Origin: an uncultured Arachnia sp.
GTDB taxonomy: Bacteria; Actinomycetota; Actinomycetes; Propionibacteriales; Propionibacteriaceae
NCBI GenBank assembly: GCA_947499145.1
Contig: CANMNB010000002.1
Span: forward strand, 62,001-126,000
Length of the DNA: 64,000 nt
Direction: 5' to 3'
Within the stretch, counting starts at the first letter, position 1; the number at the start of each line of letters is the position of its first letter. A model generated the notes under the pieces. That model had not been told where the DNA came from. It saw only the letters and a list, made by a program, of their open reading frames with translations, and did not search any database. Below, piece by piece: positions 47,070-62,600 of this stretch. The position numbers were made by a program, and so were the translations under genes.

Positions 47070-47385
47070 CTAGTGACGATGCTCTCCGAGAGCCTGCAAA
47101 GTCGCTTTCGTGCGGTCAACGTGCGGCGAACTACCGGCCGACACTGCGTCGTAGAGGTAGTGGCGCGGGCCCCCTCCGCGGTCAGGCGGGCTCCGCGAGT
47201 AGCAGGAGCCGCACGTGGTCAGGGCGCCATCGCTCTCGCCGTTTGGTATACCAAGGATCCTCTCTGATCACAAGAACACAGCAGCGCCCCAGAGGCACGC
47301 GGCCGACAGCCTCTTCAGCGGACTCCGTGAGGCGGGTTCGCCGATCCGGATGCGAGCAAAGAGAGTCCGCCGAATCTCGGATCAC
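47070..47385 (-). pseudogene. frameshifted uracil-DNA-glycosylase-like hypothetical gene (remnant)
   Basis: From GTG 47385 the minus strand encodes a plausible N terminus with LVIREDPWYTKRRERW and VRLLLLAEPA, then a stop at about 47182. The same theme resumes in another frame: PDRGGGPRHYLYDAVSAG and SPHVDRTKATLQALG, stopping at 47070. The 'RLLLLAEPAPD...HYLYD' pattern resembles UDG-like hypothetical proteins. One frameshift plus loss of the C-terminal part suggests a decayed gene at the border of the island. The interval 47386-47501 shows nothing else. Confidence 0.4.
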
Positions 47386-47513
47386 CCAGGATGTGTGAAC
47401 GCACTCATCTGCCGCGGTCAGAGCGCTCGATTGGTCCGATGATCGAGCCCCACGGACGCTGGCGGCACGGGTTGGAGAGGCGGAGTTGCTGGCAGTAGGG
47501 ATAGGATCGCTTT

Positions 47514-47888
47514 ATGGTGATGACAACTCTCATGGACGATTTCTCGTTGGGGTCTGAGGAGAGGGCGGCGGCGGATGCGGCGGCGTGCTTGTTCAACGGG
47601 TTCGCGGACCGGTCTCGGCTGGTGATCGTGCAGCACCTGTTGCTGGGGGAGCACCGGGTGGTCGACCTGACGCGGCATCTTGACTTGGCGCAGTCGACGG
47701 TGAGCAAACACTTGGCGTGCCTGCTCGATTGCGGCATCGTCCAGGTGCGAGCCCAGGGGCGGGCATCGGTGTACTCCCTCGCCCATCCTGAGGCAGTTTT
47801 GGAGTTGTTGTCTGCGGCGGAGCGGCTCCTTGGCTTGACGGGTGATGCGGTGACCCTATGCCCACGGTTCGGGAGGGGGTCGTCATGA
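47514..47888 (+). CDS. CmtR-like ArsR/SmtB-family Cd/Pb-sensing repressor
   Basis: A 124-residue winged-helix repressor. The recognition helix region STVSKHLACLLDCGIV carries two Cys four apart (about 67 and 71) and a third lies in VTLCPRF (about 117). This Cys pattern matches mycobacterial CmtR, where two helix cysteines and a C-terminal cysteine bind Cd/Pb. It is translationally coupled to two efflux genes, which it should repress until metal binds. TAGGAT (47502-47507) lies 6 nt before the ATG. Confidence 0.88.
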   Translation: MVMTTLMDDFSLGSEERAAADAAACLFNGFADRSRLVIVQHLLLGEHRVVDLTRHLDLAQSTVSKHLACLLDCGIVQVRAQGRASVYSLAHPEAVLELLSAAERLLGLTGDAVTLCPRFGRGSS

Positions 47889-48610
47889 GTTCGTGTGCGC
47901 GGGCTGCGGCGTCGCCGCTCTCGGCGGAGCGTCGGGAGGCGTTGGGTCGTCGGGCGCAGCTGTTGGCGGGAGCGTCGGTGGCGTACAACGCGGTTGAGGC
48001 TGTGGTCGCGGTTGTGGCGGGTGCGGCTGCTTCCTCGACGGCGCTGGTGGGTTTCGGTCTTGACTCGACCGTGGAGGTTGCCAGCGGGTTGATCATCTTG
48101 TGGCAGTTCCGTCATCGAATGCCGGAGGCGAGGGAGGCTCAGGCGCTCCGGTTGATCGCGTTGTCGTTCTTCGCTCTGGCAGGGTACGTGGTGTTCGAGG
48201 CGGTGGGGGCTCTGGTTGCGCACGAACCGCCGGATGGGTCGAGCGTGGGGGTGGTCATCGCGGCGCTGTCGCTGGTGATCATGCCTTTCCTGTCGTGGGC
48301 TCAGCGTCGCACCGGACGTGAGCTGGGGTCCGGCAGCGTGGTCGCGGACTCCAAGCAGACGCTGTTGTGCACGTACCTCTCCGCGGTCTTGCTTTTCGGG
48401 CTGGTCGCCAACATGGCGTGGGGTTGGTGGTGGGCGGACCCGGTCGCGGCCCTGGTGATCAGCGCGGTGGCGGTCCGAGAGGGTGTGGAGGCTTGGCGCG
48501 GCGAGCAGTGTGGGTGTGCGCCAGCCCCGCTTGCCACGCACGAGCCTGACTCCTGTTGCACCAGCGCGCCCGCCACGGTGGGAGCCCGCGGTGAGGGCGT
48601 CGAGCCATGA
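47885..48610 (+). CDS. cation-efflux family membrane protein 1
   Basis: A 241-residue CDF-like transporter with 5-6 spans. Helix 2 has VGFGLDSTVEVAS, and a later helix carries SVVADSKQTLLCTYLS, equivalents of the Asp/His metal sites of CDF proteins. The C-terminal tail is Cys-rich (QCGCAPAPLATHEPDSCC) and may collect soft metals. There is no large cytoplasmic C-terminal CDF domain. It overlaps the repressor and the next gene by ATGA. Confidence 0.82.
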   Translation: MSSCARAAASPLSAERREALGRRAQLLAGASVAYNAVEAVVAVVAGAAASSTALVGFGLDSTVEVASGLIILWQFRHRMPEAREAQALRLIALSFFALAGYVVFEAVGALVAHEPPDGSSVGVVIAALSLVIMPFLSWAQRRTGRELGSGSVVADSKQTLLCTYLSAVLLFGLVANMAWGWWWADPVAALVISAVAVREGVEAWRGEQCGCAPAPLATHEPDSCCTSAPATVGARGEGVEP

Positions 48611-49524
48611 GTGGCAACCACGGGCACGACCACACCGCGGGCCTGGCCGATCATCGCGGGAGGCTGGCTGTCGTACTGGGCATCACCGTCACGGTCCTGA
48701 TCGTCGAGGTGGTCGGTGCCGTCATCTCGGGCAGTCTGGCTCTGCTCGCCGACGCCGGTCACATGCTCACCGATGTCGCCGGGCTGACCATGGCCATGGT
48801 CGCCGCAACCCTGTCCCGACGCCCCGCGACCCCGTTTCGCACTTGGGGGTTCCTGCGCGCCGAGATACTAGGAGCTGCCGCGCAGGCCCTGCTCCTGCTC
48901 GCCGTGGGGGTCTTCATCCTGATCGAGGCCATCCAACGGCTACGTCAGCCGCCCGAGGTCACGTCCACCGCGATGGTGGTCTTCGGAGTGATCGGTCTGC
49001 TCGGCAACGTCCTCGGAATGTTCATCCTGGCCCGGGCTCGCGCGGCCAACCTCAACATGCGCGCCGCCTTCCTCGAGGTCGTCAACGACGCGCTGGGTTC
49101 CGTGGCTGTCCTCGTTGCCGCAGTGGTCATCGCCACCACCGGCTTCGACCGCGCGGATGCCATTGCCTCGCTGGTCATTGTCGCGCTCATCGTTCCCCGC
49201 ACCCTCCGCCTCCTGCGCGATGCGGTGCACGTCCTCATGGAGTCCACCCCGCCCGGGCTCGACCTCGCAGCCGTGCGCACGAGCATCCTCCAGCTGTCCC
49301 ACGTCCACGACGTGCACGACCTGCACGCCACCCAGGTCGCCACCGGCATCCCTGTTCTCACCGCGCACGTGGTCATCGACGACGAGTGCTTCCGCGACAA
49401 GCACGCCCTCCAACTCCTCGACGCCGTCCAAGAGCGTCTCCGCGACGATTTCGACATCGAGCACTCCACGATCCAACTCGAAGGACCCAACCACGCCGCC
49501 CACGAGCACCCCGTCCACGACTGA
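48607..49524 (+). CDS. CzcD-like cation diffusion facilitator
   Basis: A 305-residue Zn/Cd/Co efflux protein. The His-rich N terminus (GNHGHDHTAGLADH) precedes six spans. Metal sites HxxxD occur in LLADAGHMLTDVAG (helix 2) and VVNDALGS (helix 5). The C-terminal cytoplasmic ferredoxin-like domain (about 205-290) has VHDVHDLHATQV. It is the third gene of a coupled repressor-efflux-efflux operon. Confidence 0.9.
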   Translation: MSGNHGHDHTAGLADHRGRLAVVLGITVTVLIVEVVGAVISGSLALLADAGHMLTDVAGLTMAMVAATLSRRPATPFRTWGFLRAEILGAAAQALLLLAVGVFILIEAIQRLRQPPEVTSTAMVVFGVIGLLGNVLGMFILARARAANLNMRAAFLEVVNDALGSVAVLVAAVVIATTGFDRADAIASLVIVALIVPRTLRLLRDAVHVLMESTPPGLDLAAVRTSILQLSHVHDVHDLHATQVATGIPVLTAHVVIDDECFRDKHALQLLDAVQERLRDDFDIEHSTIQLEGPNHAAHEHPVHD

Positions 49525-49700
49525 CCCCTCCCACCCAGCCGACCATGACCCGACGCGCCCAGCCGCTCTGTGCTGCTCACACTTCGTCCCACCAGTCCTT
49601 GAAACCCGCGACATGCAGAGCCCGGCTGCGAACATCCGCTATTGCCGCTGCCGGGGCGATCGGGCGCACGGGCGACGTGGTCGCCGGGTACCCTCGCTGC

Positions 49701-50019
49701 ATGAGCATCGTGACGGCGGAGAGTATGTCGCTGCGTGCCGCGATCGATGCCCACCGCGATGCCTTGGACGGTATTCTGCGTCGCTATCGCGCAGCAACCC
49801 GAGACTGTTCGGGTCCGTGGCCCGCGGCGACGCCACAGGCGACAGTGACATCGATCTACTGATCGACTTGCTGCCGGGCGGGGAAACGACCTGCTCCGAG
49901 TTGCTGGCGTCGCCGAAGAGTTGAGCCAGGTCCTGAGGGCGAGGGTCGACGTCGTGGCCGCGTCACTGCTGCGGGATGACGTGACGTCCAGCGCTCCAGC
50001 CGACGCGGTGCCAGTGTGA
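49701..50019 (+). pseudogene. frameshifted MNT-type nucleotidyltransferase (MntA/antitoxin-like)
   Basis: Three frames together give one small nucleotidyltransferase. Frame 1 from ATG 49701 (MSIVTAESMSLRAAIDAH to about 49795) gives the first helix. Frame 2 has RLFGSVARGDATGDSDIDLL, the GS-x-DxD catalytic motif. Frame 3 has ELSQVLRARVDVVAASLLR and stops at 50019. Two frameshifts (about 49795-49805 and 49885-49900) break it. TACCCT 6 nt before the ATG shows a former leaderless promoter. Intact homologues are antitoxins of HEPN toxins; no HEPN gene follows. Confidence 0.65.
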
Positions 50020-50121
50020 CCCGATCCGATCCCAACAGGTTGGTCATCGATCCAGATCCCGCGTCCGTCTCAGGCAGAACCCTTCGCTCAGCGGCTGGCG
50101 GCAGAACGCAACCCCGCCGCC

Positions 50122-50361
50122 GTGATCAAGCCCGACGGCAAGGTCACCCGCGGCCACCAGCGCGCCAAGACATTCCAGGTTCGCCTGAACATCGAAAAGT
50201 TGGAGACGTCGACGCGCCCGGCCGAACAGCGCGAGTTTCCCGTGTCCACTCGGACTCGCGACCTCCTCCTGTCACAACTGACAGGCCAAGACGAGTCCGC
50301 CAAGGCCCTGATCGACAGGATCCGCGCAGAACTCGACGACCTCGCAACCCGTGTGGCCTGA
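50122..50361 (+). CDS. hypothetical protein, possibly truncated
   Basis: 79 residues from a GTG with no clear ribosome site. The frame stays open upstream to 50020 without an ATG, so it may be the 3' part of a broken gene. It is a charged, helical sequence (VTRGHQRAKTFQVRLNIEKL, then DESAKALIDRIRAELDDL). No family is recognised. Confidence 0.35.
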   Translation: MIKPDGKVTRGHQRAKTFQVRLNIEKLETSTRPAEQREFPVSTRTRDLLLSQLTGQDESAKALIDRIRAELDDLATRVA

Positions 50362-50457
50362 CTGGCCACAGAAAGCTGTCTCCGCGTGGCGCGGTGCTCA
50401 CTCCAGTCCGAAGTAGCCCGGGTGGGTGAGAAAACGCCCGTTACAGCGCCACGGTCA

Positions 50458-50613
50458 TCAGATCCTCCAGGCCCGGGTGCGGAGTCCGTCGTCGTCGAGC
50501 TCGAAGATCCGGGCGCGGGGATCACGGTAAGGACTGGGGAGTGGGGCCATGAGCACTTGGACGCCGCCGCTGCGCAGTCCCGCCAAGAGGTTGGCGACCT
50601 TGATCCGGGTCAT
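50458..50613 (-). CDS. possible 51-residue protein downstream of arsC
   Basis: A short frame from ATG 50613, beginning MTRIKVANLLAGLRSGGV and ending with ELDDDGLRTRAWRI. It starts 24 nt after the arsC stop on the same strand. The ribosome site is weak and no family is recognised. The interval 50362-50457 shows nothing. Confidence 0.3.
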   Translation of the reverse strand: MTRIKVANLLAGLRSGGVQVLMAPLPSPYRDPRARIFELDDDGLRTRAWRI

Positions 50614-50637
50614 GAACGAGAGCCCATTGGTTCGTCA

Positions 50638-51042
50638 TCAAGTGGGCAGCAATTCGCTGATGAGCTCCTCGACGCGACGCCGGATCTCGTCGCGGATGGG
50701 TCGCACGGCGTCGATGCCTTGACCTGCCGGATCGTCCAAGGTCCAGTCCTCGTACCGCGTCCCGGGGAAGAACGGGCACGCGTCGCCACATCCCATCGTG
50801 ACAACCACGTCCGAGACCTCCACTGCTTCCGAGGTGAGGACCTTCGGCTGCTCTGCGGAGATGTCGATGCCTTCCTCGGCCATTGCGGCCACAGCGGCCG
50901 GATTGATCGTTTCAGCGGGGGCGGAGCCGGCAGAGCGAACTTCGATCCGACCCTCGCCCAGGTGCCTGAGGTAGCCGGCTGCCATCTGGGAACGGCCTGC
51001 ATTGTGGACGCAGACGAAAAGGACGCTTGGCTTGGGGGTCAT
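50638..51042 (-). CDS. arsC: thioredoxin-type arsenate reductase ArsC
   Basis: 134 residues with the low-molecular-weight phosphatase fold. The P-loop is FVCVHNAGRSQMAAGY (nucleophile Cys about 12), followed by GCGDACPFFPGTRYEDW, which holds the second redox Cys, and a general-acid Asp in DWTLDDPAG. It reduces arsenate to arsenite. It lies 11 bp behind the ArsR-ArsC fusion gene, so two ArsC modules are made from one transcript. Confidence 0.92.
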   Translation of the reverse strand: MTPKPSVLFVCVHNAGRSQMAAGYLRHLGEGRIEVRSAGSAPAETINPAAVAAMAEEGIDISAEQPKVLTSEAVEVSDVVVTMGCGDACPFFPGTRYEDWTLDDPAGQGIDAVRPIRDEIRRRVEELISELLPT

Positions 51043-51053
51043 TGGATGGCCTT

Positions 51054-52043
51054 TCAGGTCGTAGGGAGCCCCAGCTCGACGAGCAGGGTGCGTAGTTTCT
51101 CCGAGATTCGCTCGCGGATGGCGTGCACCTCTCCCAAGGGGAGGCCGGCCGGGTCGGGGAGGTCCCAATCCAGGTAGCGTTTCCCTGGGTAGATGGGGCA
51201 GGAATCCCCGCAGCCCATGGTGACCACGACGTCGGCTGCACGGACCACGTCGTCGGTAAGCGGCTTGGGGAATTCTTGGCCGATCTCAAGCCCGAGTTCG
51301 CCGAGCGACTCCACGACGGCGGGGTTGATCTCGGATGCTGGTTTCGAGCCGGCGGATCGCACGTGCACGCGTCCGGGGGCCATCGCCGCCAGAAGGGCTG
51401 CGGCCATCTGGGAGCGGCCCGCGTTGTGGGTGCAGACAAACAGCACCTCGGGGATCGGTTTGGCGAGGATGCCCCGCGACTGGGCCAAGGCGGTCAGGCG
51501 TTCCTTTGCGAATCTGACGGCGAACAGCGGCACGTACGTCTTGATCCTGGCCGTACGGTACAGCGTCTGGAACGACTCGTGCACGTAGCGGTCCACCGTC
51601 TCTCGGGCGAAGACGCCGGAGTAACGATACGCCAGCTCCTCAATCCCTCGGGCGAGGACATGCTCCACCGTGCTGTCCGCGGGCAGGTCGATCTGACCTG
51701 GGCCGTGTATCGCTGGCTGTGGCCCTTGAGCAAACGAGTGCAGCGCCTCGGCCATATCAGTCAGCTCCGACGGGACAACGCGATAGTAGACCGACGTGCC
51801 TTCCTTCCGGCGGGAGAGCAGCCCAGCCTCGTGGAGGACCTTGAGGTGATGGCTGATCGTTGGCTGCGACACGTCGACAGCCGCAGTGAGCGCGTAGACG
51901 CTGGATTCCCCACAAGGGTCTGCGGCAATCACACGCACTAAGCGTAGACGGACTGGATCCGCCAGCGCCTTCAAGGCCGCGGATAGCTGATCGAGCGGAC
52001 CGTCCGCCATCGGGAGACCTGCGCCAGACGTCAGTATCGACAT
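51054..52043 (-). CDS. ArsR-helical domain-ArsC fusion protein
   Basis: A 329-residue three-domain protein. Residues about 13-100 are an ArsR winged helix (LSAALKALADPVRLRLVRVI, recognition helix SQPTISHHLKVLHEAG). Residues about 115-190 are the three-helix bundle found ahead of some actinobacterial ArsC enzymes (STVEHVLARGIEELAYRYS). Residues about 198-329 are an LMW-phosphatase-type arsenate reductase (FVCTHNAGRSQMAAA, Cys about 204; GCGDSCPIYPGKRY). The regulator is thus physically joined to the enzyme. ATG 52043 lies inside a large palindrome; ATG 52010 would leave that palindrome upstream as operator and keep the whole HTH. Confidence 0.9.
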   Translation of the reverse strand: MSILTSGAGLPMADGPLDQLSAALKALADPVRLRLVRVIAADPCGESSVYALTAAVDVSQPTISHHLKVLHEAGLLSRRKEGTSVYYRVVPSELTDMAEALHSFAQGPQPAIHGPGQIDLPADSTVEHVLARGIEELAYRYSGVFARETVDRYVHESFQTLYRTARIKTYVPLFAVRFAKERLTALAQSRGILAKPIPEVLFVCTHNAGRSQMAAALLAAMAPGRVHVRSAGSKPASEINPAVVESLGELGLEIGQEFPKPLTDDVVRAADVVVTMGCGDSCPIYPGKRYLDWDLPDPAGLPLGEVHAIRERISEKLRTLLVELGLPTT

Positions 52044-52077
52044 GCATCAATAATGATGCATGTCGATACTCTGGCGC
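52021..52077. promoter_or_regulatory. 57-bp near-perfect palindrome, ArsR-type operator
   Basis: The core AGTATCGACATGCATCA (52033-52049) and TGATGCATGTCGATACT (52054-52070) is a perfect 17-bp inverted repeat with 4-nt centre ATAA. Outer arms GCGCCAGA (52021-52028) and TCTGGCGC (52070-52077) also pair. It covers the annotated start of the ArsR-ArsC gene, which supports the later start at 52010. It could also form a cruciform or terminator after arsA. Confidence 0.75.
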
Positions 52078-52154
52078 AATCCCAGCCACGTGCCCGCCGA
52101 AACTCTCCCGGAAATGCGGCGCCGATCCGCCCGACTCCGAGATCTCGGAGCACT

Positions 52155-53912
52155 TCAGGACGCCAATGCGGCCAAGCGCTGGGGGCCTACGGGCTCTTCT
52201 TGCAGCAGGGGAACAATGGCCAGCCTGGTTGCCCGCTCCCGTACGGCACTGATGGGGCCCTGCTCCTGATTAGCCCGGTGGCGCAGAAGTGGTGAGTGGG
52301 TGTTTGCGGCGGTCAGCGATTGGTTGATAACCCAGGCCCACGGCTGGATGCCGGCTCGCTTCAGGTCATCCTCGAGAATGCTTGCCTCCAGAACGGGTGT
52401 GGTCTCCGGCAGGGTCACGAGGAGGATCTTCGTGTAGTCAGGATCCTGCAACCGCATGAACGGCGTCGTGTACTGCGTGCCGCTATCCATGTTGCGCGCA
52501 ATCTCGCGATGGTAGGAGCCGGCCGCGTCCATCAACAGCAGCGTGTGACCCGTTGGGGCGGTGTCCATCACCACGAACCTTCGGCGCGCCTCGCTGACAA
52601 GGTGGGAGAACTGCTGGAAGACCGCCACCTCTTCCGTGCACGGCGACAAGAGATCCTCAGCGAGCAACGCGCGCCCGGCATCATCCAAGTTCTTGCCCTT
52701 GGTGTTCATGACGTGCTCTCGGTAGTCCTTCACCGCCTGGTCGGGGCTGACCTGCGACATGACGAGATTCGGGAGTTCCTGACCGGCTCCGAGCGCGTTC
52801 TCCAGATGTCCTGCCGGATCGGTGGTGGTCAGGTGCACATCATGTCCCAACTCCGCGAGCCGGGCCGCCACTGCGGCAGCAATAGTCGTCTTTCCCACTC
52901 CACCCTTCCCCATGCACATGATCAGGCCGCGCCCGTCAGATGCAATCTGGTCGATCATGGCATCCAACGAGGGGCCGTCGCCATGACTCAGGGGGATGGG
53001 GCTGTCCGGCGGGACGTCGGACGCGTCCTGGAAGAGGGAGCGGATGGCGTCGAGGCCTACCATGTTCTCCGGCTTGAGCTCAATGATGTCCCTTGGAACA
53101 TCGGCAAGACTCGCGGGCATGTCCTCGATGGCACTGCGTTCGCGGTCCCGGATGGCCAGAACAAGGCTGTCGTCTTCGTCGGGGGCATCAGGGAGCACGG
53201 CGTTGATGACGACATTGCTCGCCCGGATACCGGTCCCCGTCAACTCCTCAGCGGTCCTTGCGATTTCCGCCAGACTGGAAACCTGAGCGCGAGCCACAAG
53301 CACCAACCTGGTGAGGGAAGGGTCAGCCAGAGCCCCCACTGCACCGCTGTACAGGTCGCGCTGCTTCTCGAGCCCGGAAAGAGGGCCCAGACAGGAAGCG
53401 TCTCCCTTCCCTGCCTCGAGGAAGCCGGTCCAATCGCCGGGCAGCTTGAGCAGGCGAATGGTGTGGCCGGTGGGGGCGGTGTCGAAGATGACGTTGTCGT
53501 AGTCCGCGACAAGAGCGGGATCCGCCAACAAGGCCGTGAACTCGTTGAACGAAGCGATCTCCGTGGTGCATGAACCGGAGAGCTGTTCGGTGATCGAGGC
53601 GATTTCTGGCTCCGGAAGCAGTCCGCGGACCGGGCTGATGATTCTCTCGCGATACTCAGCGGCCGCCTGCTCCGGGTCGATCTCAAGTGCATCCAGGCCA
53701 GGAACCGAGGTCACGGGCGAGATGGTGTTGCCAATCGTTTGGTCAAAGACCTGCCCCACGTTGGAGGCGGGATCGGTGCTGACCAGCAGCACTCGTCGCC
53801 CTTCGCCAGCCAGCTGCACCGCCGTGGCGCATGCGATGGACGTCTTGCCGACCCCACCCTTGCCGGTGAAGAACAGGAAGCGGGTCGGTTCAGTCAAGAA
53901 GCGCAGCGTCAT
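52155..53912 (-). CDS. arsA: arsenical pump-driving ATPase ArsA
   Basis: A 585-residue ATPase of two homologous halves. Walker A motifs are TGKGGVGKTSIA (about 16) and MGKGGVGKTTIA (about 336). Switch/signal motifs VSTDPASN and TTTDPAGH follow each, and DTAPTGHT occurs in both halves. Metalloid-binding cysteines are in GSCTTEIASF, GDASCLG and LSPCTEEVAVF, matching Cys113/172/422 of E. coli ArsA. It energises arsenite export through a membrane partner, but no arsB or acr3 is in the window. Confidence 0.95.
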   Translation of the reverse strand: MTLRFLTEPTRFLFFTGKGGVGKTSIACATAVQLAGEGRRVLLVSTDPASNVGQVFDQTIGNTISPVTSVPGLDALEIDPEQAAAEYRERIISPVRGLLPEPEIASITEQLSGSCTTEIASFNEFTALLADPALVADYDNVIFDTAPTGHTIRLLKLPGDWTGFLEAGKGDASCLGPLSGLEKQRDLYSGAVGALADPSLTRLVLVARAQVSSLAEIARTAEELTGTGIRASNVVINAVLPDAPDEDDSLVLAIRDRERSAIEDMPASLADVPRDIIELKPENMVGLDAIRSLFQDASDVPPDSPIPLSHGDGPSLDAMIDQIASDGRGLIMCMGKGGVGKTTIAAAVAARLAELGHDVHLTTTDPAGHLENALGAGQELPNLVMSQVSPDQAVKDYREHVMNTKGKNLDDAGRALLAEDLLSPCTEEVAVFQQFSHLVSEARRRFVVMDTAPTGHTLLLMDAAGSYHREIARNMDSGTQYTTPFMRLQDPDYTKILLVTLPETTPVLEASILEDDLKRAGIQPWAWVINQSLTAANTHSPLLRHRANQEQGPISAVRERATRLAIVPLLQEEPVGPQRLAALAS

Positions 53913-53916
53913 GGTC

Positions 53917-54276
53917 TCAGAGCCTTGCGTTCAAGGGGCCAACGCTGGCGCCCAGCCGCTGCTGCATCGTGACGCCCAAGCCGGCGTAGCGGGCGAGAGC
54001 GTCTCTGCTGGGGTACCCGCCGGTGAAGACCGTCACCCCATCGACCAGGACGAGCGGCAGACCTTCTGAGCCAGCCACCTTGAGGAAACCCATCACAGCC
54101 GGGTTCTCGACGAAGGATGCCGCGTCGCTGGCCAGGTTGTGCCGACTGATGTCGACGCCCTGACGCTTGAGAAAGTCAAGATCGGCGCTGAAGTCCACCA
54201 GCGACTGATCCACATCCTCGCCACATACGCCTGTGTTGCAGCACAGGGCCGGCTCGAACACACGAATACTCGCCAT
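53917..54276 (-). CDS. arsD: arsenic metallochaperone ArsD
   Basis: 119 residues. With ATG 54276 the arsenite-binding cysteines fall at 12, 13 and 18 (FEPALCCNTGVCG), exactly as in E. coli ArsD; ATG 54279 would shift them. It hands arsenite to ArsA, whose gene begins 4 bp downstream. It is divergent from arsR (54427). Confidence 0.93.
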   Translation of the reverse strand: MASIRVFEPALCCNTGVCGEDVDQSLVDFSADLDFLKRQGVDISRHNLASDAASFVENPAVMGFLKVAGSEGLPLVLVDGVTVFTGGYPSRDALARYAGLGVTMQQRLGASVGPLNARL

Positions 54277-54295
54277 CATTTTCCCTCTCACAAGA

Positions 54296-54410
54296 CATCG
54301 ATTGTCATCGATTCGAACTGTAGCCTACTCGAATCGACGACTGTCAATCTGAACCGAGAGCCCATCGTTCAACTCGACACGGGTCCCGGTCGTATCCATC
54401 GGTATCGATG
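54296..54410. promoter_or_regulatory. divergent arsD / arsR promoter with repeated operator motifs
   Basis: The direct repeats CATCGATTG (54296-54304) and CATCGATTC (54306-54314) are followed by the inverted repeat TCGATTCGA (54308-54316) and TCGAATCGA (54329-54337). A further CATCG-gtat-CGATG lies at 54397-54410, just before arsR. These are good candidates for ArsR binding on both promoters. Confidence 0.6.
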
Positions 54411-54426
54411 TGGCAGACTCTAGGAC

Positions 54427-54792
54427 ATGACCCGCGTTCTGCCGACTCTCGAGTGTGTCCCGGCCAGCCTTGGGCATCTCATGGCGCCCCAAGACGCTCT
54501 GGAACTGAGTGAGGTCTTGAAGGCGCTGGCAGATCCGGTGAGGTTGCGGCTGCTGCGCTTCGTGGCCGAAGCCCCGGACACGACAGCCTGCGCTTGCCAC
54601 TTGCCCCCGGCGCTGGGGATATCCCAGCCGACGCTCTCACACCACCTCAAGAGGCTCGTCGAGGCGGGACTCTTGATCCGGGAGCAGCGGGGCCGCTGGG
54701 CGCACTATCGCACCCATCCGGCTTCGCTGGCTCCGTTGATCGAGGTGCTGACAGCTCTGGCTGGCACACCCGAGGACGCGTCACCGCGATAG
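54427..54792 (+). CDS. arsR: ArsR-family arsenite-responsive repressor
   Basis: 121 residues with a winged helix (LSEVLKALADPVRLRLLRFV, recognition helix ISQPTLSHHLKRLVEAG). Candidate metalloid ligands are Cys10 (TLECVP) and the two Cys of ACACHL just before the recognition helix (about 56-58). It is divergent from arsDA and upstream of two ylbF genes, so it probably controls both transcripts. Confidence 0.9.
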   Translation: MTRVLPTLECVPASLGHLMAPQDALELSEVLKALADPVRLRLLRFVAEAPDTTACACHLPPALGISQPTLSHHLKRLVEAGLLIREQRGRWAHYRTHPASLAPLIEVLTALAGTPEDASPR

Positions 54793-54857
54793 TCCGGTCA
54801 GGCGCGATGGAAGCACCACACACCACCCAGTCACACCACCAAGGAGACCCCACGGAC

Positions 54858-55253
54858 ATGCTTACCTCAACCATTGACGCGCCGGCGGAGGCCGAGGCGC
54901 TCGCCGCCGCGAGAACGTTCGGGGAGGCGCTGAAGGCGAGCCCTGAGTTCGCCGCCGTGCTTGCCGCCGACGCGGCCCTCTCACAGGACCCCGCGGCCAA
55001 CGCCGCCATCGCGGCCTTCGACCGCCTCCAGCAAAGCCTGCGCGCCGAGATCACCACGGGGGCACTCCAGGAGTCGCAGCGGGCCGAACTCGCACGCTGT
55101 CAGCAGGATATGTACGACGTCCCGTCGGTAGCTGCCTACGTCGCAGCCACGGAGGCCTTCCAGACGGCGTGTCAAGCCACCTCGTCCATTGTGAGCGAGA
55201 TCATCGGAATCGACTTCGCCGCCAACAGCCGCTCCGGCGGCTGCTGCGGCTGA
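54858..55253 (+). CDS. YlbF-family protein with C-terminal Cys-Cys, arsenic-linked
   Basis: A 131-residue all-helical protein of the Com_YlbF type: ALAAARTFGEALKASPEFAA, then AAIAAFDRLQQSLRAEI, then a last helix pair VAAYVAATEAFQTACQATSS. It ends SGGCCG (Cys129, Cys130), with further Cys at about 80 and 107. In Bacillus the YlbF-YmcA-YaaT complex carries Fe-S clusters and guides RNase Y. Here the gene lies 65 bp behind arsR in the same direction, and the cysteine tail suggests metalloid or cluster binding (inference). AAGGAG is upstream. Confidence 0.78.
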   Translation: MLTSTIDAPAEAEALAAARTFGEALKASPEFAAVLAADAALSQDPAANAAIAAFDRLQQSLRAEITTGALQESQRAELARCQQDMYDVPSVAAYVAATEAFQTACQATSSIVSEIIGIDFAANSRSGGCCG

Positions 55254-55267
55254 TAGGACTAACCATC

Positions 55268-55642
55268 ATGCTTTCACCAGAACTTCGCACTGCGGCCGAG
55301 TCCTTCGGCGAAGCGCTTCGTCACGCTCCAGTGGTGGCGACGTACGTCGCTGCGTCGGATGCGCTGAACGCCGATCCCGACGCACAGGCGGTCATGCTCG
55401 CCCTGAGGGGACCTCAGGAGCGTTTCATGAATGCCCAGCGTTCAGGGGCAGCCCTGACGCAGGAACAGGTGGACCAGCTCCGAGCAGCGCAAGCAGCTGT
55501 CCGAAGCAATGAGACGATCATGAACCACCTCCGCGCCACCAGCGCGATCAAGGCATACCTTCCGACAGCAGCAGGCGAAGTCAGCGCGACCCTGGGCGCC
55601 GATTATGCGGGCATGATCGCGCCAGCTGCGGCCAGTTGTTGA
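55268..55642 (+). CDS. second YlbF-family protein, arsenic-linked
   Basis: 124 residues, a paralogue of the preceding gene: LRTAAESFGEALRHAPVVATY, then QEQVDQLRAAQAAVRSNETI, then a terminal helix ending AASC (Cys124). It has one C-terminal Cys where the first has two. It starts 14 bp after the first gene stops, so the two are co-transcribed and may form a heteromer. Confidence 0.78.
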   Translation: MLSPELRTAAESFGEALRHAPVVATYVAASDALNADPDAQAVMLALRGPQERFMNAQRSGAALTQEQVDQLRAAQAAVRSNETIMNHLRATSAIKAYLPTAAGEVSATLGADYAGMIAPAAASC

Positions 55643-56199
55643 CAGGACCCCCCACACCAGCGCTCGCCGCTGGCCCGGTCGTGCGTCGTCAACGGGATGC
55701 TCGAATGCGTGTGTTCTGGGAAGGGCGGAGTCCTTCTGAGTCGTGCTCACGCTGACTCCGTCGAGGGCGAAGTTGTGCGCCGTCATAGCGGCGGATCCAG
55801 TCGGCCGAGTTGAGGTAACCGATCATGAGAACCTAGGGCATCTACGGGATCAGGAAGCCCCAAGGGTCCCGGATGGGCGCCGAGCTCGACAAGCACGGCG
55901 GTCGCCTCGACGTGTCTCGTGCATCGGGCCCCGAAAGACACCGGGAGGCGCATCCGGCCCAGCGACCGCGCCCCACGATTGAGCACGGGACACCTCCTCG
56001 CCGAGCAAACCGACAAGAGTCTCCGCCACCCCAGCTTGACACCCTCAGCCCCTGCCCAGCATCACTGCCGGCGGCGAGGACGTGTCCCCCAGCAGCCCTT
56101 GGTCATCATCGCCCCAACGATGGAACCCTTCTTGCTGCGTCCCGTAAGCGCTGTGCGACCAAACCGAGCCCGCCTTCAGCGGAGAAGGGGCGCGCACTA
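55643..56199. other. gene-poor stretch
   Basis: No convincing gene. A small hairpin CCAGCG-ctcgc-CGCTGG (55657-55673) may end the ylbF transcript. On the minus strand near 55690-55815 a short run (MIGYLNSADWIRRYDGAQLR) vaguely recalls the end of a transposase, too weak to call. Confidence 0.4.
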
Positions 56200-56221
56200 C
56201 AGTTCAATGAGGATTGAACTG
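56200..56221. promoter_or_regulatory. 9-bp inverted-repeat operator before the TauE/SafE gene
   Basis: CAGTTCAAT-gagg-ATTGAACTG is a perfect inverted repeat 19 bp before the start at 56241. Its size and place fit an ArsR-family operator; it differs from the motifs at 52021, 54296 and 57068. Confidence 0.6.
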
Positions 56222-56240
56222 AGCCTGAGGGGAGAGCGTC

Positions 56241-57005
56241 GTGGAGGGTTGGACCTTGTATCTGGTGCTCTCATTGGTAGTTCTAGGACTGTCCTTTCTC
56301 TCCGGGATGATGGGCTTGGGCGTAGCCTTCATCGCCACCCCCGTGCTGGCCATCTTCGGTCTCGAACTCAAGCACGAAATCATGCCCCTGTCGCTGTGGC
56401 TGAACGGCGTGACGGCCATATCCGGCGCGGTGGCCTTCGCAAGGAAGGGCATGGTTGACTGGCGCACGGCTCTACCGTTACTCGCGGTGACCACCATCGC
56501 CGCGCCAATAGGAGTGTGGCTCCTCAACTTCACTTCGACCACCGTGCTGTGGTGGCTGTACGTAGCGGTACTTCTATTCCTCGCGTGGCGAATGGCGTTC
56601 CCACCGGCGCAGGACGATTCAGCACCCCTCGGGATCACCGATCGGACGCGCTGGAAAGCCACAGGAGCCAGCTCGGGCATCGGCGTATTCGCAGGCCTCC
56701 TCGGAGTCGGCCCCGGCTTTCTCATGATGCCGACGCTGGTCCTTCTCGGCTTGACCGCCCGAACAGCAGCCGCCACGAACAGTGTGGTGGTGACGCTGCC
56801 CTCGTTCTCTGCGTTCCTGACGCACCTGCCCTCGGCGCGCTTCGATTGGATCCTGCTGCTACTGACGACCATCGCCGCAATCGTCGGCGCCCAGTGGGGA
56901 GCCCTCTTCATGGCAAAGCGCGTCAAGAGCCTCACACTGACCCGTGTATTCGCAGTGGCCCTGGTTCTTCTCGCCGCTCAACGAGTCTGGTCACTGCTGA
57001 CTTGA
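56241..57005 (+). CDS. TauE/SafE-family anion permease
   Basis: A 254-residue protein with about 8 spans in two halves. The repeats FLSGMMGLGVAFIATPVL (N half) and VFAGLLGVGPGFLMMPTL (C half) are the family's paired motifs. Relatives export sulfite, sulfonates or other anions. Here it sits between arsenic genes with its own operator-like repeat. It could export an arsenic or sulfur oxyanion or partner ArsA, both inferences. The start is GTG with GAGGGGAG upstream; ATG 56262 is possible. Confidence 0.85.
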   Translation: MEGWTLYLVLSLVVLGLSFLSGMMGLGVAFIATPVLAIFGLELKHEIMPLSLWLNGVTAISGAVAFARKGMVDWRTALPLLAVTTIAAPIGVWLLNFTSTTVLWWLYVAVLLFLAWRMAFPPAQDDSAPLGITDRTRWKATGASSGIGVFAGLLGVGPGFLMMPTLVLLGLTARTAAATNSVVVTLPSFSAFLTHLPSARFDWILLLLTTIAAIVGAQWGALFMAKRVKSLTLTRVFAVALVLLAAQRVWSLLT

Positions 57006-57067
57006 CCGCACCAGCAAGAGCGATCCAGTGGTCTCGGCCTGACTGGGTATCAGTAGCAGTTGGTGTT

Positions 57068-57091
57068 ACCAACGGATGTTGGTGATAGGCT
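57068..57091 (+). promoter_or_regulatory. operator and leaderless promoter of the second arsR
   Basis: ACCAAC-ggat-GTTGGT (57068-57083) is a perfect 6-bp inverted repeat directly before TAGGCT (57086-57091), which is 6 nt before the ATG at 57098. This is consistent with autorepression. Confidence 0.6.
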
Positions 57092-57097
57092 AGCCGT

Positions 57098-57487
57098 ATG
57101 GAGCACACGTTGGAGGTAGCCCTGTTCGGCACCCCCGACTTGGGAGACCGCGATTATGCCCGCCTCCTGGCATCCAAACTGAAGGCTTTGGCGGACGAAA
57201 ACCGACTTGCCCTCATCCTCCTCTTGGCGCAGGGTCCCCACACGGTGGGGCAGTTGCAGGAGAACACAGGGTTGGGCCAGACCTTGGTCAGCCATCATCT
57301 GGGGCTACTGAGGGAACACGGGTTGGTCAGCGTGGCCGCCAGAGGGCGAAGCAACATCTATTCCCTGTGCTGCGACCAGCTGGGAGAGCCAGTGCGGCTG
57401 CTAGCAACGTTGGCCGCGTTGACGCCAGGAGGCGTCGCTGCGTGCTGCGAGGCCGGACCGCGGGATACCACCAAACCTGTCCCCTGA
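57098..57487 (+). CDS. ArsR/SmtB-family repressor
   Basis: 129 residues with a winged helix (LASKLKALADENRLALILLL; recognition helix GQTLVSHHLGLLREHG). Cys-Cys pairs occur at SLCCDQ (about 89-90) and AACCEAG (about 119-120), a soft-metal or As/Sb sensing pattern outside the helix positions used by CmtR. It is followed after 92 bp by an ABC exporter that it probably controls. Confidence 0.87.
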   Translation: MEHTLEVALFGTPDLGDRDYARLLASKLKALADENRLALILLLAQGPHTVGQLQENTGLGQTLVSHHLGLLREHGLVSVAARGRSNIYSLCCDQLGEPVRLLATLAALTPGGVAACCEAGPRDTTKPVP

Positions 57488-57579
57488 TCCGCAGTCCGGG
57501 CTCGGCATCGCAAGGACCCGGACGTGCATCCATCACCGCCCCTTCGAGGCTGGGGACTCGTCTCAACTGTTAGGAAAGC

Positions 57580-59424
57580 ATGCGTAGTCTCCTGAGGCTC
57601 TTACACCTGGCTCGAGAGCTCTGGCCCTACTACGTGGGGATTGCCTTGGCGGCGCTGGCAATTGCGGGGACTGCACTCGTCACACCGTTCATCATCAAAG
57701 CCGCGACGGACGAGATCGTTCTGCAGATGCAGGGACAGGGCGGCGGAGCGGCGGAATTGCTCTGGCTGGCCGGGGGGTTGCTGTTGGTCGAACTCGTGAG
57801 CACAGTCGTCGCCAACGCGGGCGGCTACCTGGGCGATGTTATGTCGGTCAAGCTAAGGGCCATCCTGTCGTCTCGCTACTACGCCAAGATGCTCACTCTG
57901 CCGCAACGCTTCTTCGATGGCCAGCTCACCGGAACCGTGATCAACCGACTCACCAGATCGATCACCGAGACCTCCCAGTTCTTCCAAATGTTCGCCAACA
58001 CCTTCCTCCCATTGCTGCTCACCGTGCTGGCGGTGCTCATAGTGACGGCCACCTACTCTGTCTGGCTGGCGATCCTGCTGGTGGTCATCTATCCCATCTT
58101 CATGTGGCTCACCGCCTTGACGTCCAAGCATTGGCAACCGCTTGAGCAACAAAAGAACCAGCACTTCGACATCGCCGGTGGGCGCTTCGCTGAAGCCATC
58201 GGACAGATCCGCGTGGTGAAGAGCTTCACCGCCGAGTTGCGCGAACTGCGGGTCTTCAACGAGCGTTACGTGAGGACGGTCGAGGTCACGCACGGCCAAT
58301 CCCGCTACTGGCACCTCATGGACGTTGCCCGTCGCGGTGCCTTCGCCCTCATCTTCTTCGGGATCTACGCCATCATCTTCACCTCCACGGCCTCCGGCGC
58401 GTTCAGCCTTGGCGCCATGGTCTTGTTGATTCAGCTCGTGGCGATGGCGAAGCAACCTGTCAGCATGATGAGCTACCTCGTCGACAGCTCCCAGCGCGCG
58501 ATCGCGGGCTCCACCAGCTACATTGAGGCGCTCGATGAACTGCCCGAGCCCCATGCTCCATTCGGACAGGAAGCCGCACTCAGCTTCACCAGACCTGCGG
58601 GCAACGGAGCGACTCAGGCCGCGGTAGCACCTTGGCAAGCGGCAAGTGCCGGCCCAGCCATTTCTCTGGGGCACGTGTCGTTCTCCTACGACGGCGCTTC
58701 AGAGGTCCTGCAGGACGTGACCTTCTCAGTTGCGCCCGGTGAACGGGTAGCCCTCGTCGGGGAATCGGGAGGCGGAAAGACCACTCTCGTCAACCTGCTC
58801 CTCGGGCTCTACCGACCGGATGCCGGCGACGTGCAAGTCCTCGGCAGTGATGTCACCCGCCTGCCTCTCCAGCAGCTTCGCGCACAGATCGGCGTCGTCT
58901 TCCAGGACTCTGCCCTCTTCTCCGGCACCATTCGGGAGAACATCGCCTACGGGCGGCCGGACGCGACCGCTGCCCAGATCGAGGACGCTGCACGCCGCGC
59001 CAATGCGCACGAGTTCGTCTCCCGCCTGACCCACGGCTATGACTCCGAAATTGGCGAGCGTGGCATCAAACTTTCGGGCGGCCAGAAACAGCGGGTGGCG
59101 GTAGCACGAGCGCTACTTAAGGACGCACCCATACTGGTTCTCGACGAGGCCACCTCCGCCCTCGACTCCAAGGCCGAACGACTCGTGCAGGCAGGACTTG
59201 ATGCGCTCATGGCTGATCGCACGACCCTCATCATCGCCCACCGGCTATCGACGATCTCATCGGTGGACAGGATCATCACGCTGCGCCAGGGGCGAGTGGA
59301 CGAGATCGGTACACCAGCTCAGCTTGCCCAGTCGGGCGGCATTTACGCCGAACTGCTGGCGCTACAAGCCTCCGCGAGCAAAGCCGACCGCAAGCGTCTT
59401 CACGCCTATGACATCACCGGGTGA
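57580..59424 (+). CDS. ABC exporter (fused permease and ATPase)
   Basis: A 614-residue half-transporter working as a dimer. Six spans lie in residues 1-325 (exporter coupling-loop region NRLTRSITETSQFFQ). The ATPase domain from about 350 has Walker A GESGGGKTT (about 393), Q-loop VVFQDSALF, signature LSGGQKQRVAVARAL (about 497), Walker B ILVLDEATSALD and H-loop IAHRLST. The substrate is unknown; the position behind arsR suggests export of a metalloid or metalloid-thiol conjugate, as Atm1-like exporters do, but that is an inference. Confidence 0.88.
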   Translation: MRSLLRLLHLARELWPYYVGIALAALAIAGTALVTPFIIKAATDEIVLQMQGQGGGAAELLWLAGGLLLVELVSTVVANAGGYLGDVMSVKLRAILSSRYYAKMLTLPQRFFDGQLTGTVINRLTRSITETSQFFQMFANTFLPLLLTVLAVLIVTATYSVWLAILLVVIYPIFMWLTALTSKHWQPLEQQKNQHFDIAGGRFAEAIGQIRVVKSFTAELRELRVFNERYVRTVEVTHGQSRYWHLMDVARRGAFALIFFGIYAIIFTSTASGAFSLGAMVLLIQLVAMAKQPVSMMSYLVDSSQRAIAGSTSYIEALDELPEPHAPFGQEAALSFTRPAGNGATQAAVAPWQAASAGPAISLGHVSFSYDGASEVLQDVTFSVAPGERVALVGESGGGKTTLVNLLLGLYRPDAGDVQVLGSDVTRLPLQQLRAQIGVVFQDSALFSGTIRENIAYGRPDATAAQIEDAARRANAHEFVSRLTHGYDSEIGERGIKLSGGQKQRVAVARALLKDAPILVLDEATSALDSKAERLVQAGLDALMADRTTLIIAHRLSTISSVDRIITLRQGRVDEIGTPAQLAQSGGIYAELLALQASASKADRKRLHAYDITG

Positions 59425-59619
59425 CGCCAGAGACGCCTCCATGTCTGATCTCTGATCAGGGAGACCCATTCTGTCCCGTGGACGCCTGCCATCCATAACC
59501 ATCGGGACCTTGGCTCTGAGAACCTTGGGCGACACGTGTACCCCCAGGTTCGAAGTAGCACACACCTCTTGCACTGTCGGTGCCGCCGCGTCGCGGTGCG
59601 GTCGGGGTTCTTGGGGGGT

Positions 59620-62600
59620 ATGACGGCGTCGTTGCACAAGCTGACGGCCGGGTCGGGCTATGACTACCTGACCCGGCAGGTCGCGGCGATGGACTCCACC
59701 GGGAAAGGTCGGACGTCGTTGGCGTCGTACTACTCCGAGAAGGGCGAGGTACCCGGCCGCTGGGTCGGAACCGCACTGGCAGCGTTGGAGGTGCCGGTTG
59801 GCTCGGCGGTGACGGCCGAGCAGATGCGGGCCCTGTTCGGTGCCGGGATGCATCCCGACATGGCGGCCCGGCTCGCCGCACTCCCAGTCGATGCGTCCCC
59901 CGAGCAGGTCCGCGACGCTGCACGGCTCGGGGCACCGTTCAAGGTCCACTCGGCGGCGACCAGGTTCCAGGAGGAGGTCGCCGACCGCAGCGCCCAGTGG
60001 GCCACCAAACACGGCCTGGACGGCGGTGAGGTGCCGTTGGATGTTCTGGCGGAGATCCGCAACGACATCGCCCGGGAACAGTTCATCACCCGGATCGGCC
60101 GCACCCCCAACGCTGTGGAGTTGTCCTCGGAAGTGGCGAGGTTGTCGCGGAACCCGACCACCGCCTGCGCCGGCTACGACATCACCTTCACACCGGTGAA
60201 GTCCGTCTCAACCCTCTGGGCCGTCGCCCCGCAGGCGATGGCCGCCCAGATCGAGCAGGCCCACGACGCCGCCGTCGCTGACGCGCTGCGGTACCTGGAG
60301 CAGCGGGTGTTGTTCTCCCGCCGCGGCGCCGCAGGAATCCGGCAGGTCGAGGTCACCGGACTGATCGGCGCCGCGTTCACCCACCGCGACTCCCGCGCCG
60401 GAGACCCCAACCTCCACACCCACGTCGCCATCGCCAACAAAGTCCAAACCCTCGACGGGGCATGGCTCGCCATCGACGGCCGACCCCTCCACGCCGGGAT
60501 GGTCAGCATCTCCGAGGTCTACAACACCCAACTCGAAGCCCACCTCACCCAGAGGCTGGGGCTGCGGTTCGCCGCCGGACCCCACCGGGACCCGTCGAAA
60601 CGCCCCGTCCGCGAGATCATCGGAGTCCCGTCCGCGCTGCGGGAAGCGTGGTCCAGCCGCCGAGCCGCAATCGAAACCCGACAAGCCGAACTCGCCACCA
60701 TCTTCCAAGAGGACCACGGCCGCCCACCCACCCCGGTGGAGGCGTTGAAACTGGCGCAGCAGGCAACGTTGGAGACCCGGGAGGCGAAGCACGAACCCCG
60801 CACCCTGGCCGAGCAGCGCGCCGCCTGGCGGGGACAGGCCGACGCCACCCTCGGCCCCGACGGCACGACCCGGATGCTGCGCGCCGTGCAGGCCGCCGCA
60901 ATCACACCAACGCCGTCCGCGACGCCGACCTGGATCGAGCACACAGCGGCCGAGATCGTGACAACGATGGGATCGCAGCGGGCGGCGTGGACGGTGTGGC
61001 ATCTGCGAGCGGAGGCCTCCCGGCGCGCCCGGGAACGTGCCACCTCCCCCGAGCAGGCGGCCAAGCTCACCGAGGATCTGCTGCAGGCCGCCTCCGGCCG
61101 CTGCCTGTCCGTCGACACTTGGCGCGACCCGTTCGCTGACCCCGCCGAACTGCGGCGCTCGACCGGCGAGTCGGTGTACACCACCGTCGGCAGCCAGCGG
61201 TTCACCTCCGCCTCGGTCATCGACGCCGAACAACGAATCCTCACCGCGGCCGCTCGTACAGACGGCCGTGCCGCGGCAGAGGTGGACGTGTCGATCGCCC
61301 TGCTCGCGTCCACCACCCGCGGCGTGACCCTGAACGCCGGTCAGATCGCTTTGGTGCGGGAGATGGCCACCAGCCGACGCCGGGTCGAACTCGCGATGGC
61401 TGCCGCCGGGTCAGGCAAAACCACAGCGCTAGCGGTCCTGGCGGATGCGTGGCGAGAAAGCGGAGGCGAGGTCCTCGGCCTGGCCCCCTCCGCCGTCGCA
61501 GCCCGGCAGCTGGCCGACCAGATCGGCCACGCCACCACCTTGGCGAAACTCGCCCACGAACTCCGCCACAACCCCCGGGACGCTCAAGACCTCGTCGGAC
61601 CCGAGGCGCTGATCATCATCGACGAGGCTGGGATGGCCGATACCCCCACCCTCGCCACCATCATCGACCACGCCATGCACCAAGGTGCGTCCGTGCGGCT
61701 GATCGGCGACGACCACCAACTCGCCGCCATCGGAGCCGGCGGCATCCTCCGCGACATCGTCCACACCTATGGCGCGGTCGAGTTGACCGAGATCCTCCGC
61801 TTCACCGACCCGGCCGAAGCCGCCGCCTCCCTAGCACTCCGCGACGGACGCATCGAGGCACTCGCCTACCACCTCGACCACGACCGCCTCCACCCAGGAA
61901 CCCCCGACACCACCCTCCAGCAAGCCCTGAACGCCTGGCTCCATGACCAAGCAGACGGGAGAGACAGCCTCATGGTCGCCAGCACCCAGAACCAGGTCAC
62001 CATCCTCAATACCCTCGCCCGCGACCACCGGCTCGCCACTGGCCGAGGGGATCCGGGCCCCTCGACGGTCCTGCTTGCTGACGGCAACCACGCGTCCGTC
62101 GGAGACGTCATCGTCACCCGGATGAACGACCGCCGTCTCCGGGTCAGCGCCACCGACTGGGTCAAGAACGGCGACCGCTGGATCATCACCGGCCTCACCC
62201 CCATAGGCCACATCCAAGCCGTCCACCGCAGCAGCGGACTCCGCGTCCTGCTGCCCGCCGACTACGTGGTCGAACACGTTCGCCTCGGCTACGCCCTGAC
62301 CGTCCACGGCGCCCAAGGCATCACGGTCGATGCCTGCCACACCGTCATCACCGGCCGCGAAACCCGTCAGCAGCTCTACGTCGCCCTCACCCGCGGCCGA
62401 CACGCCAACCACGCCTACGTCCACACCGTCGACGCCACCGACGAGAACTCCCCCATCCACCCCAGCACCCTGCAGCCCTCCACCACCGTCGACGTCCTCG
62501 CAGGCGTCCTCGCCCGCGACGGAGCCGCCATCTCCGCCACCACCCAAACCCGGACCAGCGACCAGCCCTCCACCAGACTCGGCCACGCCGCCGCCCGCTA

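Follow-up and report, generated by a model that had tools for sequence, protein, structure and literature searches.

The known systems closest to the locus described here are the arsRDABC (R773 type) and arsDA-Acr3 operons, the proposed pairings of ArsA with ArsP, and a haloarchaeal cassette with the order arsD-arsA-hcsL-hcsS(-arsR-arsM), for which no ArsB or Acr3 is annotated within 6–8 kb in the two stretches covered. The portion of Castillo and Saier (PMC2963123) available to us describes ArsA loci without ArsB and suggests ArsP, CstA, and Acr3 as further ArsA partners; the word YlbF does not occur in its main text. Here we analyzed a 64,000-nucleotide stretch from an uncultured Arachnia sp. 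(assembly GCA_947499145.1, contig CANMNB010000002.1, our contig C2, positions 62001–126000; hereafter, the window), in which arsD and arsA lie close to two genes, ylbF1 and ylbF2, encoding small cysteine-ended proteins of the YlbF/YmcA family. Like the arsRDABC and arsDA-Acr3 operons, the window encodes full-equivalog ArsA and ArsD with metal and ATP sites, and also ArsR and ArsC; unlike them, no ArsB or Acr3 was found in its operon, mobile element, or genome. As in the proposed ArsA-ArsP pairings, which we know from the available part of PMC2963123, an ArsP-family permease and a thioredoxin with a redox-active disulfide are present in this genome, but ArsP is encoded on a different contig, together with an ArsR of its own. 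The haloarchaeal cassette resembles the window in having a YlbF-fold protein with a CC end, another small protein that is Cys-ended, and an ArsD without C-terminal CC pairs. It differs in its ArsA, which is about 34% identical to that of the window (Halomicrobium), in its second protein (HcsS, 62 aa and CC-ended, versus YlbF2, 124 aa with one Cys), and in orientation, as the ylbF pair of the window is divergent from arsDA. We tentatively favor the reading that the pump-less ArsD-ArsA and the cysteine-tailed YlbF-fold pair form an arsenite module, rather than one half of a disrupted arsRDABC operon. The features on which this reading rests are as follows.

52155–53912, minus strand: ArsA, two-domain arsenite ATPase (TIGR04291)
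53917–54276, minus strand: ArsD metallochaperone (NF033727)
54308–54338, minus strand: ArsR-type operator of arsD, in the divergent arsD / arsR2-ylbF1-ylbF2 control region
54427–54792, plus strand: ArsR2, ArsR/SmtB repressor with Cys10, Cys55, and Cys57 (NF033788, 79 bits)
54858–55253, plus strand: YlbF1, helical protein of the YlbF/YmcA fold, ending in GGCCG (PF06133)
55268–55642, plus strand: YlbF2, another member of the YlbF/YmcA family, with one Cys at its end (PF06133)

Judged from their sequences, ArsA and ArsD look intact and functional. ArsA scores 805 bits against TIGR04291 (cut-off 650), and its Cys 115, 174, and 425, which we take to be the As(III)-site residues C113, C172, and C422 of R773, are kept in all 59 aligned ArsA proteins, including two from haloarchaea. 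Every one of the 59 rows also retains both DTAPTGHT motifs and the second P-loop, and 58 retain the first P-loop, at which the remaining row has a gap; a final Ser in place of Thr was scored as conserved. ArsD scores 117 bits against NF033727 (cut-off 90) and has the N-terminal CCNTGVC; the Cys tail at the C-terminus, present in eight of 11 aligned proteins, is absent from the ArsD of the window and from both haloarchaeal sequences (L107 and L108). A CC-tailed YlbF or Hcs protein is present where the ArsD tail is missing, but three related loci (L007–L009) have both. The palindromic element upstream of arsD was found in all six aligned loci (the window, L007–L010, and L070; L011 was not aligned), and the copy in the window scores 48.5 with a position weight matrix, compared to at most 13.8 in five shuffled windows; the window is among the sequences from which the matrix was built.

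The source genome (2.88 Mb in 26 contigs; completeness 100%, contamination 0.3%) was searched as a whole for the two standard pumps. The Acr3 profile TIGR00832 had no match at E ≤ 10 and the ArsB profile PF02040 none at E ≤ 1, whereas the same searches were positive in control genomes (Acr3 in 7 of 14, ArsB in 6 of 14); ArsK, ArsJ, MFS exporters, aquaglyceroporins, and ArsM were not searched for. An SBF hit over its cut-off on contig C5 was considered as Acr3 and rejected, as it is an SBF_like protein (PF13593, DUF4137; 311 bits). The first-pass annotation had reported ArsA and ArsD without ArsB or Acr3, and the family scores and empty genome-wide searches bear this out, at the positions it gave. 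It had also proposed that the pump might lie past the right edge of the window, which is refuted for ArsB and Acr3: the mobile element carrying the locus ends about 1.3 kb on, and the arsB or acr3 gene that it had envisaged elsewhere in the element or genome was looked for and not found. These searches include the genes from the end of the element to the end of the contig, which were also inspected by their first 60 residues; one of them, judged by eye, encodes a small SMR-like membrane protein. Thus, by the presence of ArsB or Acr3 in the operon or genome, this is not a classical arsRDABC or arsDA-acr3 operon.

We then asked how common this state is. An ArsA scan of genome contigs gave 115 loci, the best 80 of which were kept; six are close to the window (L007–L011 and L070; 75–83% identity at the best segment) and the others reach 57–65%. 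Pump searches were run for 50 of the 80 loci, representing 49 genomes. Acr3 was over its cut-off in 33 of the 49 and ArsB reached at least 200 bits in two (G021 and G048), so that the six close genomes have neither, whereas one or the other is present in 35 of the remaining 43 (p = 2e-4 by Fisher's test, without correction for kinship). In a second sample of 391 genomes drawn from the order, ArsA was found at E ≤ 1e-50 in 53 (51 over the cut-off), 15 of which have Acr3 over its cut-off and one of which (G094) has a piece of ArsB scoring 191 bits over 159 positions; the remaining 37 have neither Acr3 nor full-strength ArsB. The pump-less arsA state is common in the order.

Distant relatives of ArsB (44–108 bits, best per genome) were not counted as pumps. 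They occur in 19 of the 37 pump-less and seven of the 15 Acr3 genomes, and two that were checked match CitMHS better than ArsB, scoring 158 and 150 bits against an ArsB cut-off of 457. In the 49-genome set, such relatives are over the cut-off in 25 of the 33 Acr3-bearing genomes and therefore do not mark the loss of a pump. Eighteen of the 53 arsA genomes, including that of the window, have neither a distant ArsB relative at E ≤ 1e-8 nor another pump, and 13 have neither such a relative nor ArsP. Gene maps were drawn for the window and 56 further arsA loci, and in 50 of these 57 arsD is no more than 8 kb from arsA. No constant membrane gene was found beside pump-less arsDA (38 loci, five genes on either side): ArsP relatives are near arsA in five (L168, L171, L172, L185, and L187), and other membrane genes in at most two.

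In a tree of 59 ArsA rows (quick search, with support from the Shimodaira–Hasegawa-like approximate likelihood ratio test [SH-aLRT] only and no bootstrap), the ArsA of the window belongs to a nine-member clade (SH-aLRT 100) with L162, L182, L185, L181, L188, L189, L190, and L010, where L185 is from the same genome as L007. All nine genomes are without Acr3 or full-strength ArsB. The four ylbF-bearing ArsA form a subclade within it (SH-aLRT 96), and its sister group (13 rows together, SH-aLRT 90) consists of four ArsA encoded behind ArsR-ArsP-thioredoxin (L172, L187, L209, and L212). YlbF covers four of the nine members and ArsP six, counting a truncated hit in G419; G401 and the genome of L010 have neither. 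Neither YlbF nor ArsP, then, explains every case in the clade. In one relative, genome G270, the arsA of L164 is split into two pieces (349 and 236 aa) separated by other genes, and a second arsA of that genome is whole.

The ylbF1 and ylbF2 genes (54858–55642) had been overlooked in the first-pass annotation. In L007, L008, and L009 (the last being the arsA contig of Tessaracoccus sp. MC1679) the pair is directly behind arsD-arsA. A combined YlbF1 and HcsL profile matches four of the 391 genomes of the order, each time within 1 kb of arsA (hypergeometric P = 3e-4), and among loci L001–L110, YlbF1 or HcsL is carried, besides the window, only by L007–L009 and two haloarchaeal loci. The arsenic genes of L007 form a larger cluster (5816–13788) of TauE, ArsR, ArsP, thioredoxin, amidohydrolase, ArsD, ArsA, YlbF1, and YlbF2, with a Cys-rich, ArsM-like methyltransferase and an ArsR on the other strand. 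Its order of arsD-arsA-ylbF1-ylbF2, followed by the methyltransferase and arsR, can be compared with that of pNRC100, a plasmid of the haloarchaeon Halobacterium NRC-1, which is arsD-arsA-hcsL-hcsS-arsR-arsM. A search of the window for traces of the ArsP, thioredoxin, amidohydrolase, and methyltransferase genes of L007 found none at E ≤ 0.01.

The haloarchaeal link was also recovered by searching 72,556 plasmid records with YlbF1 (tblastn, E ≤ 1), which returned nine records, all of them Halobacterium hcsL/hcsS, as weak matches (E 2e-3, 52% of the query). No pump is annotated within 8 kb of the hcs-ars cluster of pNRC100, for which the gene table is incomplete, and the cluster of pHmuk01 resembles it. 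HcsL of Halobacterium NRC-1 as a query found 24 haloarchaeal plasmid records, and NRC-1 ArsA at E ≤ 1e-100 found the identical 24; hcsL is within about 70 bp of arsA in every one (ten genera; nine of the records are near-identical). YlbF1 has the traits of HcsL, namely a YlbF-like helical domain, a C-terminal GGxCC or GGCC, and a gene near arsA, and YlbF2 occupies the place of HcsS in the haloarchaeal order. When profiles of four bacterial YlbF1 and two HcsL proteins were compared by hhalign, the match was 97.4% over 111 columns, extending through the final CC, a figure that is rough because of the few sequences. The predicted structure of YlbF1 is all-helical and YmcA/RicA-like with a low-confidence tail (predicted local distance difference test 80.7, four sequences), and its best Foldseek matches in the PDB are 2iaz, 2pih (YmcA), and 6prh/6prk (RicA, RicA-RicF), at E values of 5e-3 to 7e-2 and probability 1.00. 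YlbF1 thus shares its predicted fold with the YlbF/YmcA (RicF/RicA) family; unlike that family, the window pair is Cys-ended, and its profile occurs in the 391 genomes only near arsDA.

As far as the accessible parts of two reviews that cover NRC-1 go (PMC1447603, PMC3600143), deletion of arsADRC, which may or may not include hcsLS, increases arsenite sensitivity, knockout of the chromosomal arsB has no effect, and a novel pump has been proposed. Among the literature matches listed, from a search outside which most subscription papers fall, no publication links Hcs or YlbF proteins to arsenic resistance.

Further features of the window surround arsDA and the ylbF pair.

47025–47049, plus strand: 25-bp direct repeat (att) at the left end of the mobile element
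50638–51042, minus strand: ArsC, arsenate reductase of the low-molecular-weight-phosphatase type (PF01451, 78 bits)
51054–52043, minus strand: ArsR-ArsC fusion with a three-helix-bundle domain between (HTH_5, PF21234, and LMWPc)
56200–56221, plus strand: palindromic operator CAGTTCAAT-gagg-ATTGAACTG upstream of tauE, TTCAA-N6-TTGAA type
56241–57005, plus strand: TauE/SafE permease (PF01925, 145.7 bits)
57098–57487, plus strand: ArsR3, ArsR/SmtB repressor (NF033788, 71 bits)
57580–59424, plus strand: MsbA-like ABC exporter half-transporter, under the cut-off of all 25 NCBIfam models among the matches listed
59536–63510, plus strand: TrwC-type relaxase-helicase of the mobile element (PF08751, 289 bits)

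An identical copy of the 25-bp repeat lies beyond the window at contig C2 127278 (position 5279 of the adjoining stretch, L003), at the end of the tRNA-Leu(CAG) gene (L003 5282–5365), which defines an element of about 18.3 kb ending about 1.3 kb past the window. The element sits in this tRNA gene, spans 47025–64000 of the window plus L003 1–5303, and encodes a tyrosine integrase just outside the window (L003 3854–5116). At its left end (47514–49524), an ArsR-type gene overlaps the first of two cation-efflux (CDF) genes. The separate arsC gene, which scores 101 bits against TIGR02689 (cut-off 157.6), follows about 11 bases after the ArsR-ArsC fusion gene, whose product exceeds the cut-offs of NF033788 and NF046112. 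Between ylbF2 and tauE, about 600 bp (55643–56240) have no called gene and may be the remnant of a mobile gene.

The TauE/SafE permease had been recognized in the first-pass annotation, where a check of its co-occurrence with arsA was suggested. TauE is 85% identical to the TauE of the L007 cluster; however, a similar TauE is within 8 kb of arsA in only two of the 57 mapped loci of the order (the window and L185) and in one of the 80 wider loci, and hence it is not consistently linked to arsA. The YlbF pair is tied to the ArsA of the window more tightly than TauE is. The operator of tauE has a single match in the window versus none in 100 shuffles; the same TTCAA-N6-TTGAA element precedes ArsR-ArsP units in L215, L216, and L217, and a looser form occurs in L007, L218, L172, L187, L209, and L212. 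Given an ArsR-type operator before its gene, TauE is probably arsenical-regulated, and since this operator type is common to tauE and ArsR-ArsP units, TauE is probably co-regulated with the ArsP unit on contig C6 of this genome. That unit (L215, approximately 8041–9641) comprises an ArsR gene, an ArsP-family permease scoring 234 bits against PF03773 (cut-off 32.3), and a 79-aa thioredoxin over the cut-off of the NCBIfam 'MTH895/ArsE family thioredoxin-like' model. A second TauE gene (262 aa) lies shortly before it, the whole stretch of TauE, ArsR, ArsP_1 permease, and ArsE-family thioredoxin being L215 7082–9641.

In the mechanism that we propose, arsenate would be reduced by the two ArsC proteins, as their family suggests, and As(III) would release ArsR2 from the conserved operator, turning on both arsDA and the divergent arsR2-ylbF1-ylbF2. 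ArsD would pass As(III) to ArsA, which would hydrolyze ATP, as its intact metal and ATP sites suggest. The YlbF pair may be the dedicated partner of ArsA, with flexible Cys-ended tails that would accept As(III) from ArsA for transport or retention, and haloarchaea may employ the arsD-arsA-hcsL-hcsS cassette likewise. As(III) would then stay bound or exit via a membrane protein other than ArsB or Acr3; the likeliest exit in this genome would be the ArsR-ArsP-ArsE-type operon on C6, itself a rather doubtful one. For this membrane step, ArsP is the best candidate. When a non-classical permease was first suggested in place of the pump, TauE was the protein in view; the general idea stands, but TauE is a weak choice given its rarity near arsA, and the ArsP-family protein on C6 is a better one.

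Several observations weigh against an arsenite module of this kind. The ylbF genes of the window are on the strand opposite to arsDA with arsR2 between them, they are not near arsA in five of the nine clade members (L181, L188, L189, L190, and L010), and the YlbF1/HcsL profile has no match in 33 of the order's 37 pump-less arsA genomes. YlbF1 scores 63.8 bits against the HcsL model NF041416, under its cut-off of 140, and YlbF2 34.2, while YlbF2 has no match to the HcsS model NF041415 at E ≤ 0.01 and has a single terminal Cys. On pHmuk01, a gene of the MATE family is found about 1.7 kb past hcsS. Moreover, calling the relatives pump-less depends on the score limit, and distant ArsB relatives could be their pump; seven of the nine clade genomes (G264, G348, G258, G391, G401, G419, and that of L010) carry an ArsB/CitMHS relative scoring 72–108 bits against PF02040, the match in G268 reaches 26 bits, and the genome of the window has none. 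Finally, arsenic binding by the YlbF and Hcs proteins and their contact with ArsA are properties that we infer.

Of the other explanations, the one that survives best is that the C6 ArsR-ArsP-ArsE-type operon exports, in trans, the arsenical energized by ArsA, with TauE in the same regulon and the YlbF pair as accessory. We regard it as unlikely, though far from negligible. It can draw on the ArsP-family permease with its ArsE-family neighbor in this genome, the ArsP-type operator of tauE, the L007 cluster in which TauE-ArsR-ArsP-thioredoxin and arsD-arsA-ylbF1-ylbF2 are joined, the ArsP-thioredoxin-ArsA loci as sister group of the clade, the ArsP relatives near arsA in five of 38 pump-less loci, and the coupling of ArsA to ArsP put forward in PMC2963123. 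With a threshold of 200 bits or more, which was set once the list had been seen, ArsP occurs in five of eight clade genomes against 39 of the other 383 (p = 6e-4), and 15 of 53 arsA genomes have it compared with 29 of 338 without arsA (p = 1.6e-4); at E ≤ 1e-20, it is present in six of eight clade genomes versus 123 of 383 others (p = 0.018), all of these statistics being uncorrected for kinship. However, at the same E ≤ 1e-20, the arsA genomes as a whole are not enriched (19/53 versus 110/338, p = 0.64), and 22 of the 37 pump-less genomes have no ArsP. PF03773 was not found at E ≤ 1e-20 in G401 or in G264, a 99% complete genome with both YlbF and arsDA, or at E ≤ 1e-3 in the genome of L010. 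The arsD operator was also sought ahead of the C6 ArsP operon, and L215 has no further copy of it (the window, L003, L004, L005, and L215 were scanned), and the ArsP of C. jejuni did not extrude arsenite, according to the accessible part of a review.

It is improbable that the pump belongs to some other exporter family, or among relatives is a distant ArsB/CitMHS-type protein, and is encoded away from arsDA and unrecognized by the searches made. Such distant relatives are present in half or so of the pump-less arsA genomes (19/37), and ArsK, ArsJ, MFS exporters, and aquaglyceroporins were outside the searches; on the other side stand the empty PF02040 search of the window's genome at E ≤ 1 and the scores of the two relatives checked, well under the ArsB cut-off. 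Decay, in which arsDA would be the leftovers of an arsRDA-pump operon that lost its pump and retains little function, is quite improbable. The gene-free 55643–56240, the opposite orientation of arsDA and ylbF, and the arsA in two pieces in G270 would fit it, but the retained catalytic and metal-site residues of ArsA, the arsD operator kept in all six aligned loci, the proximity of arsD to arsA in 50 of 57 loci, and a pump-less state common to the whole ArsA clade argue against it.

That TauE is an arsenite permease in the place of ArsB is very unlikely. Although it shares the island with arsDA, has an ArsR-type operator, and recurs in the L007 ars cluster, its counts near arsA (2/57 and 1/80) leave it in only two of the nine clade members, and of 23 plasmid records found by tblastn with TauE, whose neighborhoods were not looked at, none covers 80% of it. 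The chance is slighter still that the neighboring ABC exporter removes arsenic as a thiol (mycothiol) conjugate, with ArsDA only feeding it: ABC export of arsenic-thiol conjugates is known in other organisms and the arsR3 gene directly precedes the exporter gene, but none of the other 56 loci has a close homolog near arsA, the only ABC proteins on the maps are 29–36% identical (L160, L174, L179, L183, and L205), and the NCBIfam matches, among those listed, are all below cut-off.

We return to the pump-less ArsD-ArsA with its cysteine-tailed YlbF-fold pair. Descriptions of ArsA present it as a pump motor. Here, and in 37 of 53 arsA genomes drawn from the order, motor and chaperone are nevertheless kept where no standard pump of full strength was found, and annotating 'arsenite efflux' from arsA and arsD alone can mislead. 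It is possible, although we hold this wider view with more doubt, that ArsD-ArsA-Hcs is a separate arsenite-handling system common to haloarchaea and actinobacteria, in which ArsA would use ATP to load As(III) onto the Cys tails of YlbF-fold proteins and not to drive ArsB or Acr3; hcsL and hcsS would then be the components that went unnoticed when a 'novel arsenite pump' was inferred for NRC-1. The two-gene companion found in haloarchaea and bacteria provides concrete genes with which to test why NRC-1, on the available parts of the reviews, needs arsADRC and not ArsB for arsenite resistance. Collectively, the ylbF genes near arsDA and their haloarchaeal relatives beside the same genes point to a route of arsenic handling without the textbook pumps.

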